This document shows, in pieces, positions 11,264-44,843 of a stretch of DNA of 64,000 bases. The DNA is from an uncultured Lachnospiraceae bacterium (GTDB lineage Bacteria > Bacillota > Clostridia > Lachnospirales > Lachnospiraceae), in assembly GCA_902768735.1 (NCBI GenBank), contig CACXMK010000003.1:46870-110869 (forward strand), read 5' to 3'. The notes beneath the pieces were generated by a model. That model did no database searches, was not told the DNA's origin, and worked only from the letters and a program-made list of their open reading frames with translations. Both the position numbers and the translations under genes were made by a program. How positions within the stretch are numbered: the first letter of the stretch is position 1; every line of letters starts with the position of its first letter.

Positions 11264-11957
11264 TTTGCCTGAAATAGTAGCCTACGCCCCATTTCGTCTG
11301 CACATAGACAGGTTCGGAAGCGTTGGGCTCTACTTTCTCGCGGAGTCTTCTGATGTGAACATCCACTGTTCTCACATCACCCGGATAATCCTTTCCCCAG
11401 ACAGTCTGGAGAAGCATGGAACGGCTGTATACCTTGCCGGGGTGCGTGGCAAGCAGCTCGAGGAGCTCAAATTCTTTGCTTGTCAGGTTGATCTCTTTGC
11501 CGGATACAGTGACTCTTCTGTTGTCAAAATCCATCCTGAGATCGCCGTTTTCGAGGATTCTGTCGTCCTCGTCGTCGGTTTCCTTGCGGTTTCCCGCGAC
11601 TCTGCGGATGATCGCCTTGATCCTTGCCTTAACTTCAAGGATGTTGAACGGCTTTGTGATGTAATCGTCTGCGCCGTAATCAAGACCGAGGATCTTGTCC
11701 ATATCCTCGCCCTTTGCAGTGAGCATGATGACCGGGACTGCCGAAAACTCTCTGATCTGCTGGAGGACTTCCAACCCGGAGAGCTTGGGAAGCATCACGT
11801 CAAGAAGGATAATATCATACTGATTTTCACCCGCCTTCTGAAGCGCTTCTTCTCCGTCATAAGCGGTATCTACTTCATATCCGTCCTGCAGAAGACTGAA
11901 ACGTATTCCCTTTACGATCATCTTCTCATCATCTACTACAAGAACCTTCGTAGCCAT
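11253..11957 (-). CDS. OmpR/PhoB-family response regulator, WalR-like
   Basis: Two-component regulator, 234 residues. Receiver domain at 1-120: acidic pair Asp9-Asp10, phospho-Asp53 in LLDVMLP, Thr80 in MLTAKG and Lys102 in YITKPF. Winged-helix DNA-binding domain at about 135-232 with LTSKEFELLELLATHPGKV and VDVHIRRLREK. The ATG follows GGAG by 6 bases. First of a tight operon with the kinase (11-bp overlap) and the GerMN lipoprotein. Receiver and DNA-binding domains look like the WalR/PhoP branch, but the exact orthologue cannot be decided here. Confidence 0.93.
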   Translation of the reverse strand: MATKVLVVDDEKMIVKGIRFSLLQDGYEVDTAYDGEEALQKAGENQYDIILLDVMLPKLSGLEVLQQIREFSAVPVIMLTAKGEDMDKILGLDYGADDYITKPFNILEVKARIKAIIRRVAGNRKETDDEDDRILENGDLRMDFDNRRVTVSGKEINLTSKEFELLELLATHPGKVYSRSMLLQTVWGKDYPGDVRTVDVHIRRLREKVEPNASEPVYVQTKWGVGYYFRQNDR

Positions 11958-25492: not shown

Positions 25493-28400
25493 CTACCAGC
25501 GCTGTTCGATCTCCAGGTAGAAGCGCACGTCCTGCCCTTCCAGACTTTCAATGGCTTTCTCCATGTTGGAAGTAACCTTTACAAATTCGAGTCCTTCCAG
25601 GGAAAGAAGCGGTGTCAGATCCGTGATCCCGTTGTTATCCTGCAGATGCAGCTCCCTGAGTCCTTGATGTCCTTCCACAAATTCCGCAAATAACGCGTTC
25701 AGATCCTCCGCACTGCTCTCCTTTGTAAAAGCATTGCCGGCTAAGAACCAGCGGATCTCCTTACCTTCCAGAAAAGAAAGGAATCTTTCCGCATCGGTGT
25801 TATGGATCTCCAGGCTGTTATAAACCGGGATGGATGCCAGCGGTGAAAAGTCTTCGATCATGTTTCCATCCAGACGCAGGGAAAAACCGCCATCTCCGGC
25901 AGCTTCCGAAAAATCACATTCTGTCAGAGGTGATAAATCACTCACTTTAGTTCCCATGATATCCAGTTCCCGAAGGATCGTCAGGTTCTGTACTCCCTGA
26001 ATGCTATCCGCATTGCTTCCTCTGAGCGAGAGCCGCTGCAGATCCTGCAAAGTAAAAACAGAGGAAAAATCCGTCAGTTCATAACACCGCACAATATTCA
26101 AAGAAGCAAGTTCCCTGAAATTCTGGATCCCTTCAAGGCTCTCCAGCGGCTGAAGATATAGTTCCAGAGACTGCAGTCCTGTAAGCTTTTCCAAAAAACG
26201 GATGTCTGTCACAGGTCCGGGCTCAATCGTTGTCTCTTCGTTCGTGTTGTGGTCGTAAACAACAATCTTCGGCGAGCCGCTGCCGTTGTCCCATCTCTCC
26301 CGGATCTCACAGCTTTCACTGTCTATGACCATGTCGCCCGCTATAGCGATCCGTTTCACATGGCGCAGCATTGCATCCGGCAGTGTCTCCAGTTCGTCCA
26401 GCGAAAGAAGCGAGAATCCTGACCGGTCGAGTTCCCAGCCGCCCTGAGGATACTCTATCTGATACTTTACGAAGTTTCCTGCTTTCACAAGGTCTAACGC
26501 CTGTTCCTCCAGTTCAGGAGAAACTGTGATGGTAAGGCCTTTAAAGCGCTCCAAAGGTTTAAGGTTGTTCACTTCCAGCCCGACAAGTTTAAAGCTGCAT
26601 TCGTTGGAGTTGTCCATTCCTTCCAAAAAGCTAAGGTCCTTTACCTCTTCCACACTGTCAAGGTTGAGTTCCGATGTGCGGACATCCGCCATGGAAGGCA
26701 GCGTAAACCCTCCTGTGATCTCCAGTTTACTCAGCCTCATTCCGCTCAGTGCATCAAAGTCCGAAAGACGCGGGCAGTTGTAGATCGTGAGGACCCCTCT
26801 GTTATTTCCTATAACGGACTGATTCTGAAGGCCTTCCAAAGAACGCAGCACCATGCAGTTCTGTAACGTCAGATAAGGCGCCTTCCAGTCTTCCGGCATC
26901 GTTGAGAGGTCGGTGATGCCGCACCGCTCCAAAATGAGCTGCATGGACAGTTTCGGAAGCATCGACAGCTCCACCCGGTCAAGCCGTCTCAGCGTCAGAT
27001 AATCAACCTCGATGTTTTCCATGCAGGAAGCGATCCGGTCAAAATCCTGTGCATTATCAGGATCCAATGTAAGGGAAGTATACTTCCTAAAAGCGCCGAG
27101 CCCGGAATAGTCGCCTACACTGCCGACAAAACTGAACCTTGAGATCTCATCGCGTCCATCAGCGCACTCCTTCAAAAAATCAAGATCCGAAAGGTCGGCG
27201 CCGGAAAGATTGATATCGATCAGTTTTTTAAGACCACCTACGAAAGAAACATCCCGCAGCCGTCTCCTGTCTCCCGACATGATCGTAAGCCTCTCAAGAG
27301 CGCTGCATTTCCCGATCGTGCTGTAATCCTGCACAGAAGAGCAGTTATCGATCGTCAGTTCCCTGAGCGATGAAAGGGATCCAATAACGGAGATGTCCTC
27401 CAGATTCTCCAACCTCCTCAGTTCGAGTTCTTCAATGCTGTTTTTACCCTCCAAAAATGCCAGGGACCGGACCGGTACCGCGGTCAGGCTCACCTCTTCT
27501 AGTTTTTCGCATTTACTGAGACCGGACAGATCCACATATCCCTCTCTGCCACTTGCATTCAGAGTTAACTTTTTCAGCGTTGCGGGAGAAAAATAACTGA
27601 AATCCAAAGGTCTCGTCCCTGTAGTATCCAGAGTGACCTGCTGTAAATTCGTACACTTTCCCAGAACAGAGTAGTCCGTGTCACAGCGAAGCTGGATCCT
27701 CTGAATACCGGTATTCGTGATCCATGAGATTTCTCCGAGATCGCAATCCATGGCGGACATAGCAATCAGTTTGTTCAGTCCGCTCAGATCCGGCGCATCC
27801 GCCACATCAACTTCCGCCATTTGAAGGTCTTCCAAATTGGGCATGAGGGAGAGAAAACGGAGGTCATAGGATGTCCTTGTTACTTCGCTCCCGTCCTCGT
27901 TCCAGTACCAGCGTCTGTCCGCAGGATTCCCTTCTCCCGATTCGTTCGCCAGCTCATAAAGCATTTGCCCCCAGCTGAAGCTTATAGTCGCTGATGTCAA
28001 TCGGTCCGCATTTGTATAGTATTTAAAGTGTTCTCCGATGATCACAACACAGCTGATCTCTGCCAGTTCTTTCTCTGTAAGACCGGCCGGCAGCGGATAT
28101 GGGATCTCAGGCTCCTGCAAGACTTCCTCTGCCGCTGTTTCCTCTGCGTTGTTCGTGCTGCCCTGCATTCCTTTTGCAAAAAGAAACACAAAGATTGCAA
28201 GCAGAACAACTCCTCCTGCTGCGAGAAGGATCGGGAGACGGCTCTTTTTTGCCGGAAGGGCTTCAATGATCCTGTCTGCGACAAGTCCCGGCTCTCTTCC
28301 GACTGCGGAAAGAATATTGCGGGCGTAGATCGCGTTCCTTAAATCCTCCGGCATTTTTTCTTTGTCGATCTGAAGAGGCAGAACACTCTCTCCGTTAAAG

Positions 28401-28597
28401 GCAGTTGCACTCAGAAGAGCATCCTTCAGGGAGCTGTCCTCGTAAAAGTTCTTCGAGAGCACAGCAAGAAGTGTATCCCCTTTCTCAGGGGTACCCTCGA
28501 TTGCAGTGATGCCTTTCTCTCTGAGAGCATCTATGATAGGGGATACGTTATCCTTATCAGCTTTGGCAAGAAGGAGTCTGACAGTCCGGCCATTCAT
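25493..28597 (-). CDS. TIR-like, transmembrane, leucine-rich-repeat protein (degenerate TIR)
   Basis: A 1034-residue receptor-like protein. Residues 1-115 form a degenerate TIR-like or SEFIR-like fold: VRLLLAKADKDNVSPIIDAL, LLAVLSKNFYED, and LPLQIDKEKMP match TIR strands A, C and D, but the WYDEG segment is lost and the TIR glutamate is replaced (near Ala60; Asp59 is adjacent). KKSR then a helix at 121-141 predicts the N-terminus inside and the rest outside. Residues 195-1030 carry many irregular 21-24-residue leucine-rich repeats of internalin type (LSGLNKL, LEELELRRLENLEDISVIG, LTGLQSLELYLQPLESLEG). The ATG follows AGGAGG. Function unknown; likely surface ligand sensing (inference). Confidence 0.72.
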   Translation of the reverse strand: MNGRTVRLLLAKADKDNVSPIIDALREKGITAIEGTPEKGDTLLAVLSKNFYEDSSLKDALLSATAFNGESVLPLQIDKEKMPEDLRNAIYARNILSAVGREPGLVADRIIEALPAKKSRLPILLAAGGVVLLAIFVFLFAKGMQGSTNNAEETAAEEVLQEPEIPYPLPAGLTEKELAEISCVVIIGEHFKYYTNADRLTSATISFSWGQMLYELANESGEGNPADRRWYWNEDGSEVTRTSYDLRFLSLMPNLEDLQMAEVDVADAPDLSGLNKLIAMSAMDCDLGEISWITNTGIQRIQLRCDTDYSVLGKCTNLQQVTLDTTGTRPLDFSYFSPATLKKLTLNASGREGYVDLSGLSKCEKLEEVSLTAVPVRSLAFLEGKNSIEELELRRLENLEDISVIGSLSSLRELTIDNCSSVQDYSTIGKCSALERLTIMSGDRRRLRDVSFVGGLKKLIDINLSGADLSDLDFLKECADGRDEISRFSFVGSVGDYSGLGAFRKYTSLTLDPDNAQDFDRIASCMENIEVDYLTLRRLDRVELSMLPKLSMQLILERCGITDLSTMPEDWKAPYLTLQNCMVLRSLEGLQNQSVIGNNRGVLTIYNCPRLSDFDALSGMRLSKLEITGGFTLPSMADVRTSELNLDSVEEVKDLSFLEGMDNSNECSFKLVGLEVNNLKPLERFKGLTITVSPELEEQALDLVKAGNFVKYQIEYPQGGWELDRSGFSLLSLDELETLPDAMLRHVKRIAIAGDMVIDSESCEIRERWDNGSGSPKIVVYDHNTNEETTIEPGPVTDIRFLEKLTGLQSLELYLQPLESLEGIQNFRELASLNIVRCYELTDFSSVFTLQDLQRLSLRGSNADSIQGVQNLTILRELDIMGTKVSDLSPLTECDFSEAAGDGGFSLRLDGNMIEDFSPLASIPVYNSLEIHNTDAERFLSFLEGKEIRWFLAGNAFTKESSAEDLNALFAEFVEGHQGLRELHLQDNNGITDLTPLLSLEGLEFVKVTSNMEKAIESLEGQDVRFYLEIEQRW

Positions 28598-28644
28598 AGG
28601 TTTTCCTCCTATTTTGTCTATGCAGCTATATGATCATACTCTAT

Positions 28645-29820
28645 TCACGGAACGAGGACAACCGAAAAACCGGCATCCGCGCCCCAGAAAAGCGGCAGCA
28701 TATTTCGGCTGACAGTCACCGTCTGTAAGCGCGGCAGGCCGCTCAGAGCCGTCAGATCACTCACCTGTGTATGTTCCAGTCGCAGGATCTCCAGGCTGGG
28801 GAGATCTTCGAGCGCAGCAATACTCTCCACAGTGCTTCCCGCAAGACTGAGATCCTGCATGAGTACATGGGAACGAAGATCGCTAAGGTCCGCAAGCGGC
28901 TGACAGAGAAGCCCGAGTTTCTCGATCCTCACTGCGTATGGGAACAGTGACAGATCAGATACCTGTCCCCGGATCACCGGCGCACCGTTGACTCTGCAGA
29001 CGCCGTCTTCATCGAATGTGACTTTTTCAAGGCTTTTCAGCACCATATTTCCGCAGATATACAGCTGATCCAGCTCCGCCAGATCGCCTCTTATGATCTC
29101 ATCCTCTTTCATGTTAAGAGCGCTGCGTATCGCTTTCTCCTGATCAGCGTCAGGAAAAGATATGGCAAATAATCTCTCCGCTTCGCCCAGATCCACAACA
29201 TCGGGGACTGGCTCCTCCGGCTCCTTGTCAGTTTCCTCTGCCACAGATACTGATTCCTGTAGTTCCTCTTGCGGGAAGGGATTCCACAGGCCGCTTCTCA
29301 GCGCGCCAAGCGCGCCTGCGGAGACGGCAAAAAAGAGAAGTGATGCGACAAGACCGAGAGCCCCTTTGGGAAGGGATTCCGTAAAGGAGCGGTGAAATCG
29401 GCGCGAAACAAATCCGGACCGAAGGATCGCTTCCGCCCTTGCCGCAGCGTTATCGATCAGCGGGATCTCCTGTTTGCCCTGCAGGATCTCTTTCCAACGA
29501 TCATCCGGTTCCGCATCTTCAAGCCATACCACAAGAACAGGTTTCTTCATCCGGCAAGCGGTGCGCATCTCACTGTAGCAGTTCGGCGATTCCATAGCGC
29601 GTGCAGACAGAAAAAAGATCACTCTCTCGCAGTCCTGCATATGCCGCGCGATATTTGCCGGCCAGTCGCTTCCTGCCGGGATTCCCTCGTCATACCAGAG
29701 GCGCCAGTCTCTTTCGTGAAGGATACGGATCGTACTGACTACTTCTTCCGACTGAAGGTGGGCATAACTGATGAAGAGAAACGGGCGTGTACCCTCATAG
29801 GGTTTAAAAAAACGGCTCAT
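28645..29820 (-). CDS. TIR-domain, transmembrane, leucine-rich-repeat protein (intact TIR)
   Basis: A 391-residue protein with an intact-looking bacterial TIR domain (7-135): PYEG, FLFISYAH, LWYDEGI at 41-47, and SPNCYSEM with the conserved Glu84, the residue that acts in TIR NAD-cleaving enzymes. RRFHR then a helix at 153-174 anchors it with the TIR inside. A Glu/Pro-rich linker is followed by leucine-rich repeats (about 250-375: LEKVTFDEDG, LSLFPYAVRIEKLGL, LAGSTVESIAALEDLPSLE, LTALSGLPRLQTV). The ATG overlaps the previous stop by 4 bp and sits after GGAGG. It may cleave NAD+ or signal through TIR contacts; neither is shown. Confidence 0.8.
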   Translation of the reverse strand: MSRFFKPYEGTRPFLFISYAHLQSEEVVSTIRILHERDWRLWYDEGIPAGSDWPANIARHMQDCERVIFFLSARAMESPNCYSEMRTACRMKKPVLVVWLEDAEPDDRWKEILQGKQEIPLIDNAAARAEAILRSGFVSRRFHRSFTESLPKGALGLVASLLFFAVSAGALGALRSGLWNPFPQEELQESVSVAEETDKEPEEPVPDVVDLGEAERLFAISFPDADQEKAIRSALNMKEDEIIRGDLAELDQLYICGNMVLKSLEKVTFDEDGVCRVNGAPVIRGQVSDLSLFPYAVRIEKLGLLCQPLADLSDLRSHVLMQDLSLAGSTVESIAALEDLPSLEILRLEHTQVSDLTALSGLPRLQTVTVSRNMLPLFWGADAGFSVVLVP

Positions 29821-30653
29821 GTTCCCCCTCCCACAAGTTCAATGGTATACTCCCCTTCCGGGAGCGGTTCCTCCCCTAACAGCGCTTTCTGCGGAATCCG
29901 GATCTTTTGCAGCGACGGTAAAAGAGAGAGATCCTCCCAGTTCTCCGGCATACCGGACAAGGTTATAGCGGTGATCCCGAAAATTGTTTCTTCCGTAATG
30001 GGACCTTTACCGACTTCTTCCTTCACTGCCGAATAAAGAACAGGATCGCTGAATGTAACCTGCTCTATCGCCTCTGTTTCTGCGGGAGCGGCATTCCGGG
30101 CTCCGAGAAAGAAAAGAATCGTCATAACTATAGCAAGAATACAAAACAGCAGGGTCAGTTTACCGAAAATGCTTTTCCCGCCAGATTCGTCACTGATCTT
30201 TACAGGCTCTCCGAGCAGTTCCTGAGAAAACCCTTCCGCGTGAATGATCGCATCCACCAGCTGTTCCTCTCCTCTTAGATTGTACAGGGGGATGTGTGGT
30301 ATATTCTCTTTAAGGCCCATAGCCAGTCTCCGGTCTTTTCCATCCGGATCGAGGCAGAGAATGGGCGCATCGTCATTTTGGTTTACAAGAACATTGCTCT
30401 TGGTATTATGGTCGCCGCAGGCCTCATCTGTCAGATAAAGGAGCGTTAGCGCAGCGCCTCTGTAGCGGGCCTGGCGTCTCACCACCTCCTCCGGGCTGTC
30501 AGCGCGCCCCTGGTTGTACCAAACTCTGCATCCGCGCTCCAGTAGAGGGCGCAGGATTTCCCACACTTTCCCTCTGTCAGCCTCCGCAAAAGCCAGATAA
30601 ATATAGGACTCTTCCCCCTCATAGGGCGGATATTTTCTATAACAGTCGTACAC
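29817..30653 (-). CDS. TIR-like, transmembrane, short LRR protein (degenerate TIR)
   Basis: First gene of the array, 278 residues, GTG start 7 bases after GGAG. Residues 10-145 match the TIR of the next gene: both begin with PYEG, and RVWYNQG (43-49) replaces LWYDEG; the TIR glutamate aligns with Asn87, so catalysis is unlikely. A helix at about 163-184 (LLFCILAIVMTILFFLG) anchors the protein. The tail holds one or two leucine-rich-repeat units (ITAITLSGMPENWEDLSLLPSLQKIRIP). The short, inactive form may be a partner or regulator of the active protein (inference). Confidence 0.68.
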   Translation of the reverse strand: MYDCYRKYPPYEGEESYIYLAFAEADRGKVWEILRPLLERGCRVWYNQGRADSPEEVVRRQARYRGAALTLLYLTDEACGDHNTKSNVLVNQNDDAPILCLDPDGKDRRLAMGLKENIPHIPLYNLRGEEQLVDAIIHAEGFSQELLGEPVKISDESGGKSIFGKLTLLFCILAIVMTILFFLGARNAAPAETEAIEQVTFSDPVLYSAVKEEVGKGPITEETIFGITAITLSGMPENWEDLSLLPSLQKIRIPQKALLGEEPLPEGEYTIELVGGGT

Positions 30654-30687: not shown

Positions 30688-30717
30688 ATCATAACTCAGC
30701 TCTTGTCATATCGTCAA
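30688..30717 (-). promoter_or_regulatory. Promoter of the TIR-LRR operon
   Basis: Minus strand TTGACG, 18 bases, TATGAT, about 35 bases before the GTG start. It lies between the lipoprotein terminator and the array, so the array is an independent unit. Confidence 0.6.
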
Positions 30718-30723
30718 TTTCGC

Positions 30724-30752
30724 AAAAAAAGAGCGCCGCTTATAGAAGCGGC
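30724..30752 (-). terminator. Terminator of the lipoprotein gene
   Basis: GCCGCTT / AAGCGGC stem (30735-30752) with a 4-base loop, followed on the minus strand by GCTCTTTTTTT. Confidence 0.85.
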
Positions 30753-42266: not shown

Positions 42267-44843
42267 TTATCCGTTAGCACCGGCATCGCCGTTATCGCCG
42301 CCGTTATCGCCGCCGCCGTTGTCGCCGCCGTTATCCCCGCCGCCGTTGTCGCCGCCGTTATCGCCGCCGCCGTTGTCACCGCCGTTATCTCCGCCGCCGT
42401 TGTCGCCGCCGTTATCCCCGCCGCCGTTGTCGCCGCCGTTATCTCCGCCGCCGTTGTCGCCGCCGTTATCTCCGCCGCCGTTGTCGCCGCCGTTATCCCC
42501 GCCGCCGTTGTCGCCGCCGTTATCTCCGCCGCCGTTGTCACCGCCGTTATCTCCGCCGCCGTTGTCGCCGCCGTTATCTCCGCCGCCATTGTCGCCGCCG
42601 TTATCTCCGCCGCCGATATCCTGACCGGAGCCGCCTCCGGAATCTCCACCATTATCAGGCTCCTCAGGTTTCGTAGGAGCAAGTGTAGGCGTCGGGACTA
42701 CAGGTGCCTGTGTAGGCGTAGGTGTAAGAGACGGTGTCAGCGTAGGAGTCGGTGTTTTTGAAGGCTCATGGTGATCCCAATCATCGTCGTCCCACTCCTG
42801 GTCCCTGAGGGCTCTTTCTTCCTTCGCCCGGTCGTAGTCCTTGAATGCAACCGGTTCAAGTTCCTCGTGGATCAGGTTCATGAAACTTTTCCAGATCCTT
42901 CCCGGCCATGCTGCACCCTGAAGGCCGCGAACGCTCTGCGGAGTGTCATATCCAACCCAGACTGCTGTCGTATAGTAATGGGTGAATCCACAGAACCATC
43001 CGTCCTTGGCGTCATCTGTCGTACCGGTCTTGCCGGCGCAGGGCATGCTGTTGTTGAGCCTTAAGCCGCGGCCTGTGCCCCAGCCTTCCTCCATAACCCC
43101 CTGCAGAACGCTGACCATTTCTCTTGCCGCGTTCTTGTCATAGACTTTAGAGGAGACTCCCTCGTAACTGTAGACCGTCGATCCCTTGTAATCCACGATC
43201 TTTTTAATGCAGGTAGGGATCCGGTATTTACCGTCATTCTGGAGCGTGCAGTAACCCGCTGCCATTTCCACAGGCTCAACGCCGTAAGTAAAACCGCCAA
43301 GGCTGGTCGCGAGAGTGTAGTCTGAATCCACGATCTCGGAAAAATGCATCGCCTTGAGCTTGGACAGACCATATTTGGGCGTAATGTCCTCATAGACCTG
43401 CCATGCAACGGTATTGAGCGATCTCTGTACGGCTTCGCTCAGTTCGATCTGGCCCATGTAACCGCCATCAAAGTTCTTTGGTCCGTCTTCAATCTCCTGG
43501 TCTTCCACAAGTGTGCCGGGATAGTATCCTCTTTCAAAACCGGGCGTATAGACGACCAGCGGCTTGATGGAGCTTCCTGGCTGCCTGTGGCTCTGATAGG
43601 CACGGTTCAGCGTAAGACCCGCATCGATCTCCTGGGACCGTCCGCCGACCATTGCGACGACCTGCCCCGTACTGTTATCAATACACACAGCCGCACCCTG
43701 CATCTTGTACTTGCCGTCGTCCGCTGTGTCAGTAAAGTCCTCCAGTTCCTCGTCCACACAGGTCTGCAGTTCTTCCTGCATCTCCATGTCGAAAGAGGTA
43801 TAGATCTTATAGCCCCCCTTGAGCAGTTTCGCAAGGCACGCGTCATACAGTTCATTGTATACCTTGTCGTATGCGGCGCGCTCATCGTCGCTGGCGAAAT
43901 CGTATCGAAGAGAAAAATCCGGGTCTTCGGTCTGCATGAGAACTTCCGTGGCGCACTTATAGGTATACGTCAACACATATGTATTCTCGTTCAGGTTCGA
44001 CTTTTTATTCCCGCTAAGGTCGAGCACGATATTCTCATTCGTAGCGTGGTCGTACTCCCCCTGTGAGATCACGCCGTCTTTGAGCATGTTTGCAAGGATC
44101 AGGTCCCGCCTCACTACCGTATGATCGGGATGGACAAGCGGATCATAGTATGTCGGGCTGTTGGGGATCGCGCACAGGTAAGCGACCTGCGACAGGTCGA
44201 GCTTGTCGGGCGTCTTGTTAAAGTACCCTTCCGAAGCGGAGGCAATCCCGTAATAGCCGTTCATGAAATATATATTGTTGAGATAAAACTCAAGTATCTG
44301 GTCCTTGTTATACTTCTTTTCAAGATCCCATGCGATAAAGATCTCCTCGATCTTTCTCTCCCAGGTCCTTCCGTTGTTGAGGAATATTCCTCTCGCAAGC
44401 TGCATCGTGATCGTGCTTCCGCCCTGCGTGATCTGCCTGCGCATGACCAGCTCTTTAGCGGCACGAAGGATCGCTTTGTAATCGACGCCATTGTGCTTGT
44501 AAAAACTCTTGTCTTCAATGCTGACGATCGCCTGCTTGAAAAGATCGGGGATCTTTGAATACGTAAGGTAGTTGGAATCCTTATCCGGCAGGGTCTCCGA
44601 AACGAGATTGCCGTCAGCGTCATAGATCTCTCCGGTCTGGGAAGGCACAAATGTCTCTTTCGTAGACTCCGAAACGAACATGTCCGCTTCGTCCTTCATC
44701 GCCTTGACCCTGTCATAATAACCGCCAAAATAGAAAATGCACAGGACCGCGAGCATTCCCGTTAAGATCAGCAGCAACAGCGCTTTTAAAAAGATAAGAA
44801 ACGGATTTCTTTTCTTTTTTCTATTGCGTTCATTCTTAGCCAT
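42267..44843 (-). CDS. Class A penicillin-binding protein with Gly-Asp-Asn tail
   Basis: Bifunctional transglycosylase and transpeptidase of peptidoglycan, 858 residues. One N-terminal helix (about 12-34) anchors it. The glycosyltransferase 51 domain shows EDKSFYKHNGVDY and QGGSTITMQLARG. The transpeptidase has GSSIKP (SxxK), SLN (SxN) and AGKTGTTDD (KTG). After a Pro/Thr linker (PTPTLTPSLTPTPTQ) the tail contains about 12 copies of GGGDNGGDN. The ATG follows CGGAGG. The tail is longer than in related proteins and could bind wall or metals; its role is unknown. Confidence 0.95.
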   Translation of the reverse strand: MAKNERNRKKKRNPFLIFLKALLLLILTGMLAVLCIFYFGGYYDRVKAMKDEADMFVSESTKETFVPSQTGEIYDADGNLVSETLPDKDSNYLTYSKIPDLFKQAIVSIEDKSFYKHNGVDYKAILRAAKELVMRRQITQGGSTITMQLARGIFLNNGRTWERKIEEIFIAWDLEKKYNKDQILEFYLNNIYFMNGYYGIASASEGYFNKTPDKLDLSQVAYLCAIPNSPTYYDPLVHPDHTVVRRDLILANMLKDGVISQGEYDHATNENIVLDLSGNKKSNLNENTYVLTYTYKCATEVLMQTEDPDFSLRYDFASDDERAAYDKVYNELYDACLAKLLKGGYKIYTSFDMEMQEELQTCVDEELEDFTDTADDGKYKMQGAAVCIDNSTGQVVAMVGGRSQEIDAGLTLNRAYQSHRQPGSSIKPLVVYTPGFERGYYPGTLVEDQEIEDGPKNFDGGYMGQIELSEAVQRSLNTVAWQVYEDITPKYGLSKLKAMHFSEIVDSDYTLATSLGGFTYGVEPVEMAAGYCTLQNDGKYRIPTCIKKIVDYKGSTVYSYEGVSSKVYDKNAAREMVSVLQGVMEEGWGTGRGLRLNNSMPCAGKTGTTDDAKDGWFCGFTHYYTTAVWVGYDTPQSVRGLQGAAWPGRIWKSFMNLIHEELEPVAFKDYDRAKEERALRDQEWDDDDWDHHEPSKTPTPTLTPSLTPTPTQAPVVPTPTLAPTKPEEPDNGGDSGGGSGQDIGGGDNGGDNGGGDNGGDNGGGDNGGDNGGGDNGGDNGGGDNGGDNGGGDNGGDNGGGDNGGDNGGGDNGGDNGGGDNGGDNGGGDNGGDNGGGDNGGDNGGGDNGGDNGDAGANG
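42286..42618 (-). repeat. 27-bp tandem repeat coding GGGDNGGDN
   Basis: About 12 copies of a 27-base GC-rich unit (plus strand CCGCCGTTATC and CCGCCGCCGTTGTC halves) with few silent changes. Such tracts change length by slipped replication. It is coding and has no spacers, so it is not a CRISPR array. Confidence 0.9.

Follow-up and report, generated by a model that had tools for sequence, protein, structure and literature searches.

Can a bacterium build a cell-surface receptor from the parts of an animal Toll-like receptor, with leucine-rich repeats (LRRs) outside the cell and TIR domains inside it, when the order of the chain is reversed? The question is raised by three adjacent, co-oriented genes on the minus strand of a 64,000-nt stretch of DNA (hereafter the window) from an uncultured Lachnospiraceae bacterium (assembly GCA_902768735.1, contig CACXMK010000003.1, positions 46,870-110,869, forward strand). 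The genes, named A, B and C in order of transcription, occupy positions 25493-30653 of the window and had been described in an earlier note as an array of TIR, membrane-helix and LRR proteins. Open reading frame (ORF) analysis of the window showed that all three are intact at the coordinates given there, with a 4-base overlap between A and B and a gap of 47 bases between B and C. We regard the chances as evenly balanced that their products form a three-subunit surface receptor with the TIR domains inside and the LRRs outside, in which B would be an enzyme making a signal derived from nicotinamide adenine dinucleotide (NAD+).

29817..30653, minus strand: gene A, 278 amino acids, GTG start; PYEG-prefixed putative pseudo-TIR (residues ~8-140), predicted membrane helix 166-184, short LRR-cap-like outer part
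28645..29820, minus strand: gene B, 391 amino acids; canonical TIR with catalytic-type Glu84, predicted membrane helix ~156-174, Glu/Pro-rich linker, LRR ectodomain with few repeats
25493..28597, minus strand: gene C, 1034 amino acids; putative reduced TIR-like domain without helix alpha-B (residues 1-116), predicted membrane helix 123-141, very long internalin-like LRR ectodomain
28180..28597, minus strand: N-terminal TIR-like segment and membrane helix of C, the stretch used for searching and modelling the reduced TIR

A single B sequence used as query on genome contigs found no relatives, and a B profile was needed to find the 73 loci detected on the contigs of named genomes. These loci come mostly from metagenome-assembled genomes (MAGs) labelled Lachnospiraceae, Oscillospiraceae/Ruminococcaceae or other Clostridia, many of them with ruminant-gut sample names. 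A and B lay on one strand in 66 of the 73 loci and C was also present in 63 of these 66, consistent with the conserved neighbourhood that the earlier note had expected in related genomes; in the three loci without C (L138, L154 and L160) the block runs up to the end of the locus or stops 172 bases short of it. The order A-B-C was kept in these 63 loci though the identity of B drops to about 40%, and the A/B overlap was 4 bases at 56 of the 64 junctions scored. Whole-gene ratios of non-synonymous to synonymous substitution (dN/dS) ranged from 0.06 to 0.21 in nine comparisons, of which the three involving the window have dS values of 1.6-1.9, near saturation. A, B and C are all under purifying selection, which together with conservation in 66 loci rules out chance or an annotation artefact as the origin of the block. 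The loci left out of the 66 were L161 and L162-L167, the latter being other TIR proteins, among them two from a Sigynarchaeota archaeon MAG (L163 and L165) that were caught by the B profile. In L161 (2467-3630) a TIR is fused directly to LRRs of the gene C type without a membrane helix, adjoining an HD-RyR-like gene of the kind described below; this is probably what remains of the block after a deletion.

The block is patchily distributed. B was present in 11 of 62 genomes of the genus, and of 392 genomes sampled evenly across the order only the window's own had the block, ruling out a wide spread at that level. In the B tree the genus label needs two changes, one sequence of the genus (L128) joins an Oscillospiraceae row with support of 98/86, and the genus formed one clade in 0 of 200 bootstrap trees. 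The tree contradicts simple vertical descent, and because L128 groups with an Oscillospiraceae sequence, horizontal transfer has probably contributed to the patchy distribution, so that some movement of the block between lineages is likely. A phage or plasmid origin was not upheld: the B profile found no relative on viral contigs, B found none on plasmids, and the only phage record matched was a partial one, covering 35% of B at 34.6% identity.

The TIR domain of B is certain. In the Pfam search suggested by the earlier note, B matched TIR_2 at 2.3e-15 (57.6 bits against a cut-off of 28), whereas A reached only an E value of 0.19 (12.7 bits against the same cut-off), short of the curated threshold, and C had no Pfam TIR match at E values up to 1. 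Profile-profile comparison was more sensitive. Using hhalign, A was aligned with B at 98.2%, and at 99.1% over 131 columns when 59 A rows and 62 B rows were used. Rows were the proteins that passed a start filter, namely 58 of the 66 locus proteins plus the window's own for A and 61 of 66 plus the window's for B; for C, 80 of 83 rows were kept and 79 aligned, and the helix and charge counts given below for C come from an earlier 40-row set. These scores support a common ancestry of A and B, in line with the duplication and divergence that the earlier note had read from the PYEG prefix and matching strands; the prefix is present in A and B and not in C.

The N-terminus of C was harder to place. 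A ten-row profile gave hhalign values of 0.1% and 7.4% and no support for a TIR, a 40-row profile gave 93.6% to A and 78.5% to B (100 column shuffles gave at most 1.9-2.0%), and a 79-row profile gave 96.4% to A and 91.5% to B (100 shuffles gave at most 1.8% for A and 9.0% for B). An AlphaFold model of the N-terminal 140 residues of C had a predicted local distance difference test score (pLDDT) of 80.5 and a predicted template modelling score (pTM) of 0.70; its top 11 Foldseek matches were all TIR domains, and chicken Toll-like receptor 15 (TLR15) was among the nearest solved structures. Receiver domains, which have a related fold, came close behind in the list, so the fold search alone is not decisive for C. 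In the alignment, helix alpha-B of B corresponds to 13 residues that are missing from C. The A model had a pLDDT of 78.4 and a pTM of 0.52, and its best Foldseek matches were the MilB hydrolase (1.0e-3) and a Bacillus cereus TIR (1.1e-3), with none below 1e-3. The possibility that C has no TIR, suggested by Pfam and the shallow profiles, was dropped after the deeper profiles and the model agreed. Taken as a whole, the profile-profile and fold comparisons indicate a TIR-like fold in both flanking proteins, A and C, as the earlier note had proposed.

If all three proteins carry TIR-like domains, which of them could be enzymes? A glutamate in helix alpha-C is described as critical for the NADase activity of a subclass of TIRs in the accessible part of PMC7075850, where the frequency of this residue is also said not always to be in step with reported activity. 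In B, Glu84, the DEGIPAG loop and the N80-C81 pair were invariant in 62 of 62 rows. At the column aligned to Glu84, a glutamate occurred in 0 of 59 A rows and in 5 of 79 C rows. The B profile aligned Glu84 with a glutamate of the CRISPR-associated TIR protein Cat1, which cleaves NAD, at an E value of 0.0036, and chicken TLR15 was also matched at 0.027. As 49 of 79 C rows have an acidic residue in the column just before the Glu equivalent (D in 31, E in 18), the case for loss of the glutamate is stronger in A than in C. On these alignments B alone looks catalytic, and A and C look like pseudo-TIRs.

The best hydrophobic 19-residue segments of the window copies lay at residues 166-184 in A, about 156-174 in B and 123-141 in C, one per protein, and rows with a single hydrophobic segment numbered 59 of 59 for A, 60 of 62 for B and 38 of 40 for C. 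The basic residues before each helix, pointed out in the earlier note for the window's proteins, recur across the family: an excess of lysine plus arginine on the N-terminal side of the helix was counted in 55 of 61 B rows (4 ties), 36 of 39 C rows (1 tie) and 39 of 59 A rows (13 ties). This excess favours a predicted topology with the TIR inside and the LRRs outside, most weakly for A. Beyond the helix, B matched Pfam LRR_4 (7.1e-8) with internalin-type repeats, and the internalin-like repeats of C matched LRR_4 (1.7e-15) and LRR_EndoS (1.2e-14); C scored far under the cut-offs of the NCBIfam internalin models, and none of the three proteins has an LPxTG wall-anchor motif. A strict LRR pattern picked out 8 units in the window's C, which is an undercount. 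Judged by how it aligns with B, the outer part of A appears to consist of a cap-like stretch and about one repeat. Thus the order TIR, helix, LRR holds in all three proteins, as first described, except that A has hardly any repeat region.

The number of C genes varies between loci. More than one C ORF was found in 15 of the 66 loci; in L098, L099 and L125 these represent one C split between frames, leaving tandem C genes in 12 loci. A and B remain single where C multiplies. Among copies of over 700 amino acids, within-locus C pairs (15 pairs from 11 loci, not all independent) were more similar in the N-terminus than in the ectodomain in 15 of 15 cases, with median identities of 73% and 42%, and in two pairs the cytoplasmic parts were 99-100% identical and the ectodomains 39-41%. 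By comparison, 400 random between-locus pairs had medians of 39% and 38%, with the N-terminus more similar in 246. A lead of the N-terminus of at least 15 points occurred in 34 of these 400 pairs vs 14 of the 15 within-locus pairs. This pattern fits what would be expected of a shared A/B core served by diversified recognition chains; gene conversion at the 5' end would yield the same pattern and is compatible with that idea. The multi-subunit receptor suggested in the earlier note, still a prediction, has gained support from the strict linkage of the genes, the 4-base A/B overlap and the tandem C chains with shared cytoplasmic and divergent outer parts. A separate observation concerns the split C of L099, which lies at a run of G (~11567-11573), six G vs five in the similar L097, within the codons of the membrane helix, and which could reflect either an assembly error or phase variation.

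What might such a receptor signal to? When the flanking ORFs were clustered, two families recurred, one in 36 loci and the other in 25. When counted by profile in flanks of up to 10 kilobases (kb), an HD-RyR-like family was found in 39 of the 66 loci, a SLOG-SLATT-like family in 33, both in 30 and either in 42; on the same strand and within 100 bases of the block, the counts were 29 and 14 loci, respectively. Proteins of the HD-RyR-like family have ~670 amino acids, with Pfam HD matches in 5 of 12 members (best 4.9e-4) and RyR matches in 3 of 12 (best 0.034). His586, Trp589, His627 and Asp655 were invariant in the 12 rows, their equivalence to RyR-domain residues being judged by eye, and the pattern EHxRW...GW occurred in 31 of the 38 longer proteins. 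The SLOG-SLATT-like proteins (~530 amino acids) matched YAcAr, of the SLOG family, in 10 of 13 members (best 3.8e-4), DUF4231 in 12 of 13 (best 7.2e-5) and SLATT_3 in 10 of 13 (best 3.8e-4). According to the accessible sections of the two reports, phage RyR-domain proteins bind or degrade cyclic ADP-ribose signals (PMC13232231), and SLATT is a predicted membrane effector that is regulated by ADP-ribose derivatives and accompanies TIR genes in phages (PMC9503650).

These parts can be arranged into a working model. A, B and C would be subunits of a single cell-surface receptor, in which C, with its long ectodomain, would be the ligand-recognition chain, B the signalling enzyme, and A a pseudo-TIR partner whose part would be to complete the B site or keep it in place. 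A ligand bound to C (and B) would bring the TIR domains together, and B would then cleave NAD+ to an ADP-ribose-type signal or simply deplete NAD+. Where the partners are present, the SLOG-SLATT-like protein may sense the signal and respond by opening the membrane, with the HD-RyR-like protein perhaps binding or degrading the signal. The most likely role would be signalling at the cell surface in defence or conflict. A fuller version, which we put forward more tentatively, makes the block an analogue of the Toll receptors in which a fixed core of catalytic B and pseudo-TIR A is combined with a locus-specific repertoire of C, C' and C'' chains, an extracellular ligand is converted into an ADP-ribose-type messenger, the SLOG-SLATT-like protein executes the response and the HD-RyR-like protein tunes it.

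Several observations weigh against this model. A conserved glutamate is no proof of NADase activity, as the accessible part of PMC7075850 indicates, and a one-residue shift in the C alignment would weaken the claim that the glutamate has been lost there. No PADLOC defence-system model matched the block. None of the Pfam or NCBIfam matches of the two partner families reached its curated cut-off, and nothing convincing came from searching PDB profiles with either family, so the families are named only HD-RyR-like and SLOG-SLATT-like; in the former, ParB_C was also matched in 5 of 12 members (best 0.009), outscoring RyR (0.034), a match that is probably irrelevant. The block has neither partner gene next to it in the window or in 8 of 9 same-genus loci. 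The window's genome, which is 85.5% complete, has no SLOG-SLATT-like match, and its HD-RyR-like gene is on another contig next to another TIR gene. Across the 62 genomes of the genus, in which B occurs in 11, the HD-RyR-like family in 15 and the SLOG-SLATT-like family in 4, the HD-RyR-like gene was found in 5 of the 11 B genomes vs ~2.7 expected by chance (one of the five, in G003, is a broken fragment and another, in G013, is partial), and the SLOG-SLATT-like gene in 1 of 11; co-occurrence of the partners with B inside the genus was therefore not supported. As the window's block has no adjoining partners, its own receptor may act through direct NAD loss or through a shared distant partner.

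Must B be an enzyme at all? The TIR domains could instead be interaction modules, as in the adaptors of animal Toll-like receptors, that assemble upon ligand binding and pass the signal to some other cytosolic partner, the glutamate of B being structural. Such a receptor would account for the two TIRs of three without a conserved glutamate and for the window's genome, where no candidate signal-reading gene lies beside the block, and it agrees with the imperfect correspondence between glutamate frequency and activity mentioned above (PMC7075850, accessible part). Yet Glu84, the DEGIPAG loop and N80-C81 are kept in every B row beside partners with no conserved glutamate, the pattern of an enzyme with pseudo-enzyme partners, and the neighbours in 42 of the 66 loci resemble nucleotide-signal families; we consider an assembly receptor unlikely. 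The outer half of the proteins invites another explanation, that the LRRs bind host, plant fibre or other surfaces, or glycans and nutrients, and that the TIR reports attachment rather than danger. The LRRs do match internalins best, many of the 73 records have ruminant-gut sample names, and C-type lectin, DUF285/BspA-like, Sel1 or propeller-like modules are found on further TIR-membrane proteins encoded in the genome. Divergent tandem C chains with similar cytoplasmic parts fit immune-type signalling better, however, as does the frequent proximity of SLOG-SLATT-like and HD-RyR-like genes, and an LPxTG anchor is missing from A, B and C, which leaves a role in adhesion or nutrient sensing improbable in our estimation.

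It might also be asked whether the three proteins belong together. If the array were no more than a duplication cluster, A, B and C would be separate receptors acting alone on different inputs, as the homology of A and B and the single-chain TIR-membrane proteins of the same genome would allow. The A-B-C order in 63 of 66 loci at B identities down to ~40% argues otherwise, as do the single A and B beside multiplying C genes, and A and C would each have to act without a conserved catalytic glutamate of their own; the chance of this explanation being right appears slim.

The three-subunit receptor may also be compared with described systems. Like animal Toll-like receptors, the block's proteins have a single predicted membrane helix, with the TIR predicted from the charge bias to lie inside and the LRRs outside, and TLR15 lies near both the C model and the B profile. 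Unlike them, all three chains are ordered TIR-helix-LRR rather than LRR-helix-TIR, three different chains come from one operon, the LRRs are of the bacterial internalin type, B keeps the NADase-type glutamate, and the proteins have no signal peptide (by eye). The Thoeris system consists of the TIR protein ThsB and an effector with a SLOG or macro domain. In this respect the block is similar, having its TIR gene near a gene for a SLOG-like domain in 33 of 66 loci, but its TIRs are on membrane-anchored LRR proteins and the SLOG-like neighbour has a SLATT-like membrane part. B scored 15.7 bits against PF08937 (cut-off 21.2) and an E value of 0.017 against the PADLOC ThsB model, and does not qualify as a ThsB-type TIR; no SIR2 or macro match was found in the neighbour proteins scanned, and the PADLOC ThsA models were unmatched. 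SLOG is the signal-sensing domain of the SIR2-SLOG ThsA according to the accessible part of PMC11204291. The TIR-SLATT pairs of Firmicute phages (PMC9503650) likewise have a TIR near a SLATT-type membrane effector, and the accessible text of that report mentions neither an LRR ectodomain nor a three-TIR array. Similarly, phage RyDEP/RyR-domain proteins, as far as the accessible part of PMC13232231 describes them, resemble the HD-RyR-like family in the RyR match and the invariant His, Trp, His and Asp, whereas the family here is bacterial, with proteins of ~670 residues that include an HD-like domain and are encoded near a receptor operon. The LRRs are of the same class as those of Listeria internalins, from which the block's proteins differ in the N-terminal TIR, the internal helix and the missing LPxTG motif, and they do not qualify as internalins. 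By parts, the closest kin are the Toll-like receptors and Thoeris, and neither has all of its tested defining features in the block. A described system with the A-B-C gene set was found neither in PADLOC nor in the literature, the latter limited to open-licence papers, in agreement with the earlier note, whose author knew of none.

Other TIR genes were also found in the window's genome. At E values up to 1 it has 12 TIR_2 matches, namely A, B, nine others above the cut-off and one below threshold in a flavoprotein-like ORF. In seven of the nine (L069, L070, L071, L072, L073, L075 and L076, in genome G000) a membrane helix follows the TIR, and their C-terminal parts carry the lectin, DUF285/BspA-like LRR, Sel1 or propeller-like modules mentioned above, so that TIR-helix-sensor chains appear to be a general theme of this genome; among them, conservation was followed for the three-chain LRR block. 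The HD-RyR-like gene of the same genome (G000:C9:11501-13552 and on; L077, 2478-6869) lies directly 5' of a gene encoding a TIR-like domain, a TIR and TPRs, and a pair of an HD-RyR-like gene and a double-TIR TPR gene is also present in three same-genus genomes (L195, L196 and L198). In another genome (G037; L192, 6656-9837), an HD-RyR-like gene precedes a SLATT-like gene that lacks the SLOG part, and no TIR gene was seen in the 18 kb examined; this pair may work with other triggers. In five loci (L104, L106, L107, L111 and L121), a protein of ~575 amino acids, which by eye resembles a protein kinase joined to LRRs, is encoded upstream of the HD-RyR-like gene or of A-B-C, and four of the five also have a small recurrent upstream gene of ~172 amino acids. 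A similar kinase-LRR gene order occurs in L203 without an A-B-C block in the 10 kb examined.

Around the block in the window, one further feature precedes gene A:

30688..30752, minus strand: terminator-like hairpin (by eye) and promoter-like site (from a scan) before gene A

The hairpin (30752-30735), with a T-run, lies 3' of an upstream lipoprotein-like gene and was not listed by a hairpin scan. The promoter-like site, TTGACG-18-TATGAT at 30717-30688, lies 5' of gene A and is weak, the scan having found 6 sites vs 4.0 (standard deviation 1.9) in shuffled sequence. A hairpin followed by a promoter-like site marks a possible start of a transcription unit. Downstream, the next gene, which we take to resemble maf, begins 14 bases past the end of C. 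Elsewhere in the window (42267-44843) there is an ORF that by eye is penicillin-binding-protein-like, with a long tail of Gly/Asp/Asn repeats at its end.

We rate the block as a variant within the bacterial TIR signalling systems, with a gene set not previously described as far as we could find. To our knowledge, the bacterial TIR defence systems known so far sense infection inside the cell. If the predicted receptor is real, bacteria would have arrived at the plan of the Toll receptors with the chain order reversed, and the block would offer a simple system for asking how an outer LRR switches on an inner TIR. The tandem C chains would be a natural test case for ligand diversification, and in other genomes the nearby RyR-like and SLOG-like genes hint at the signal to seek.

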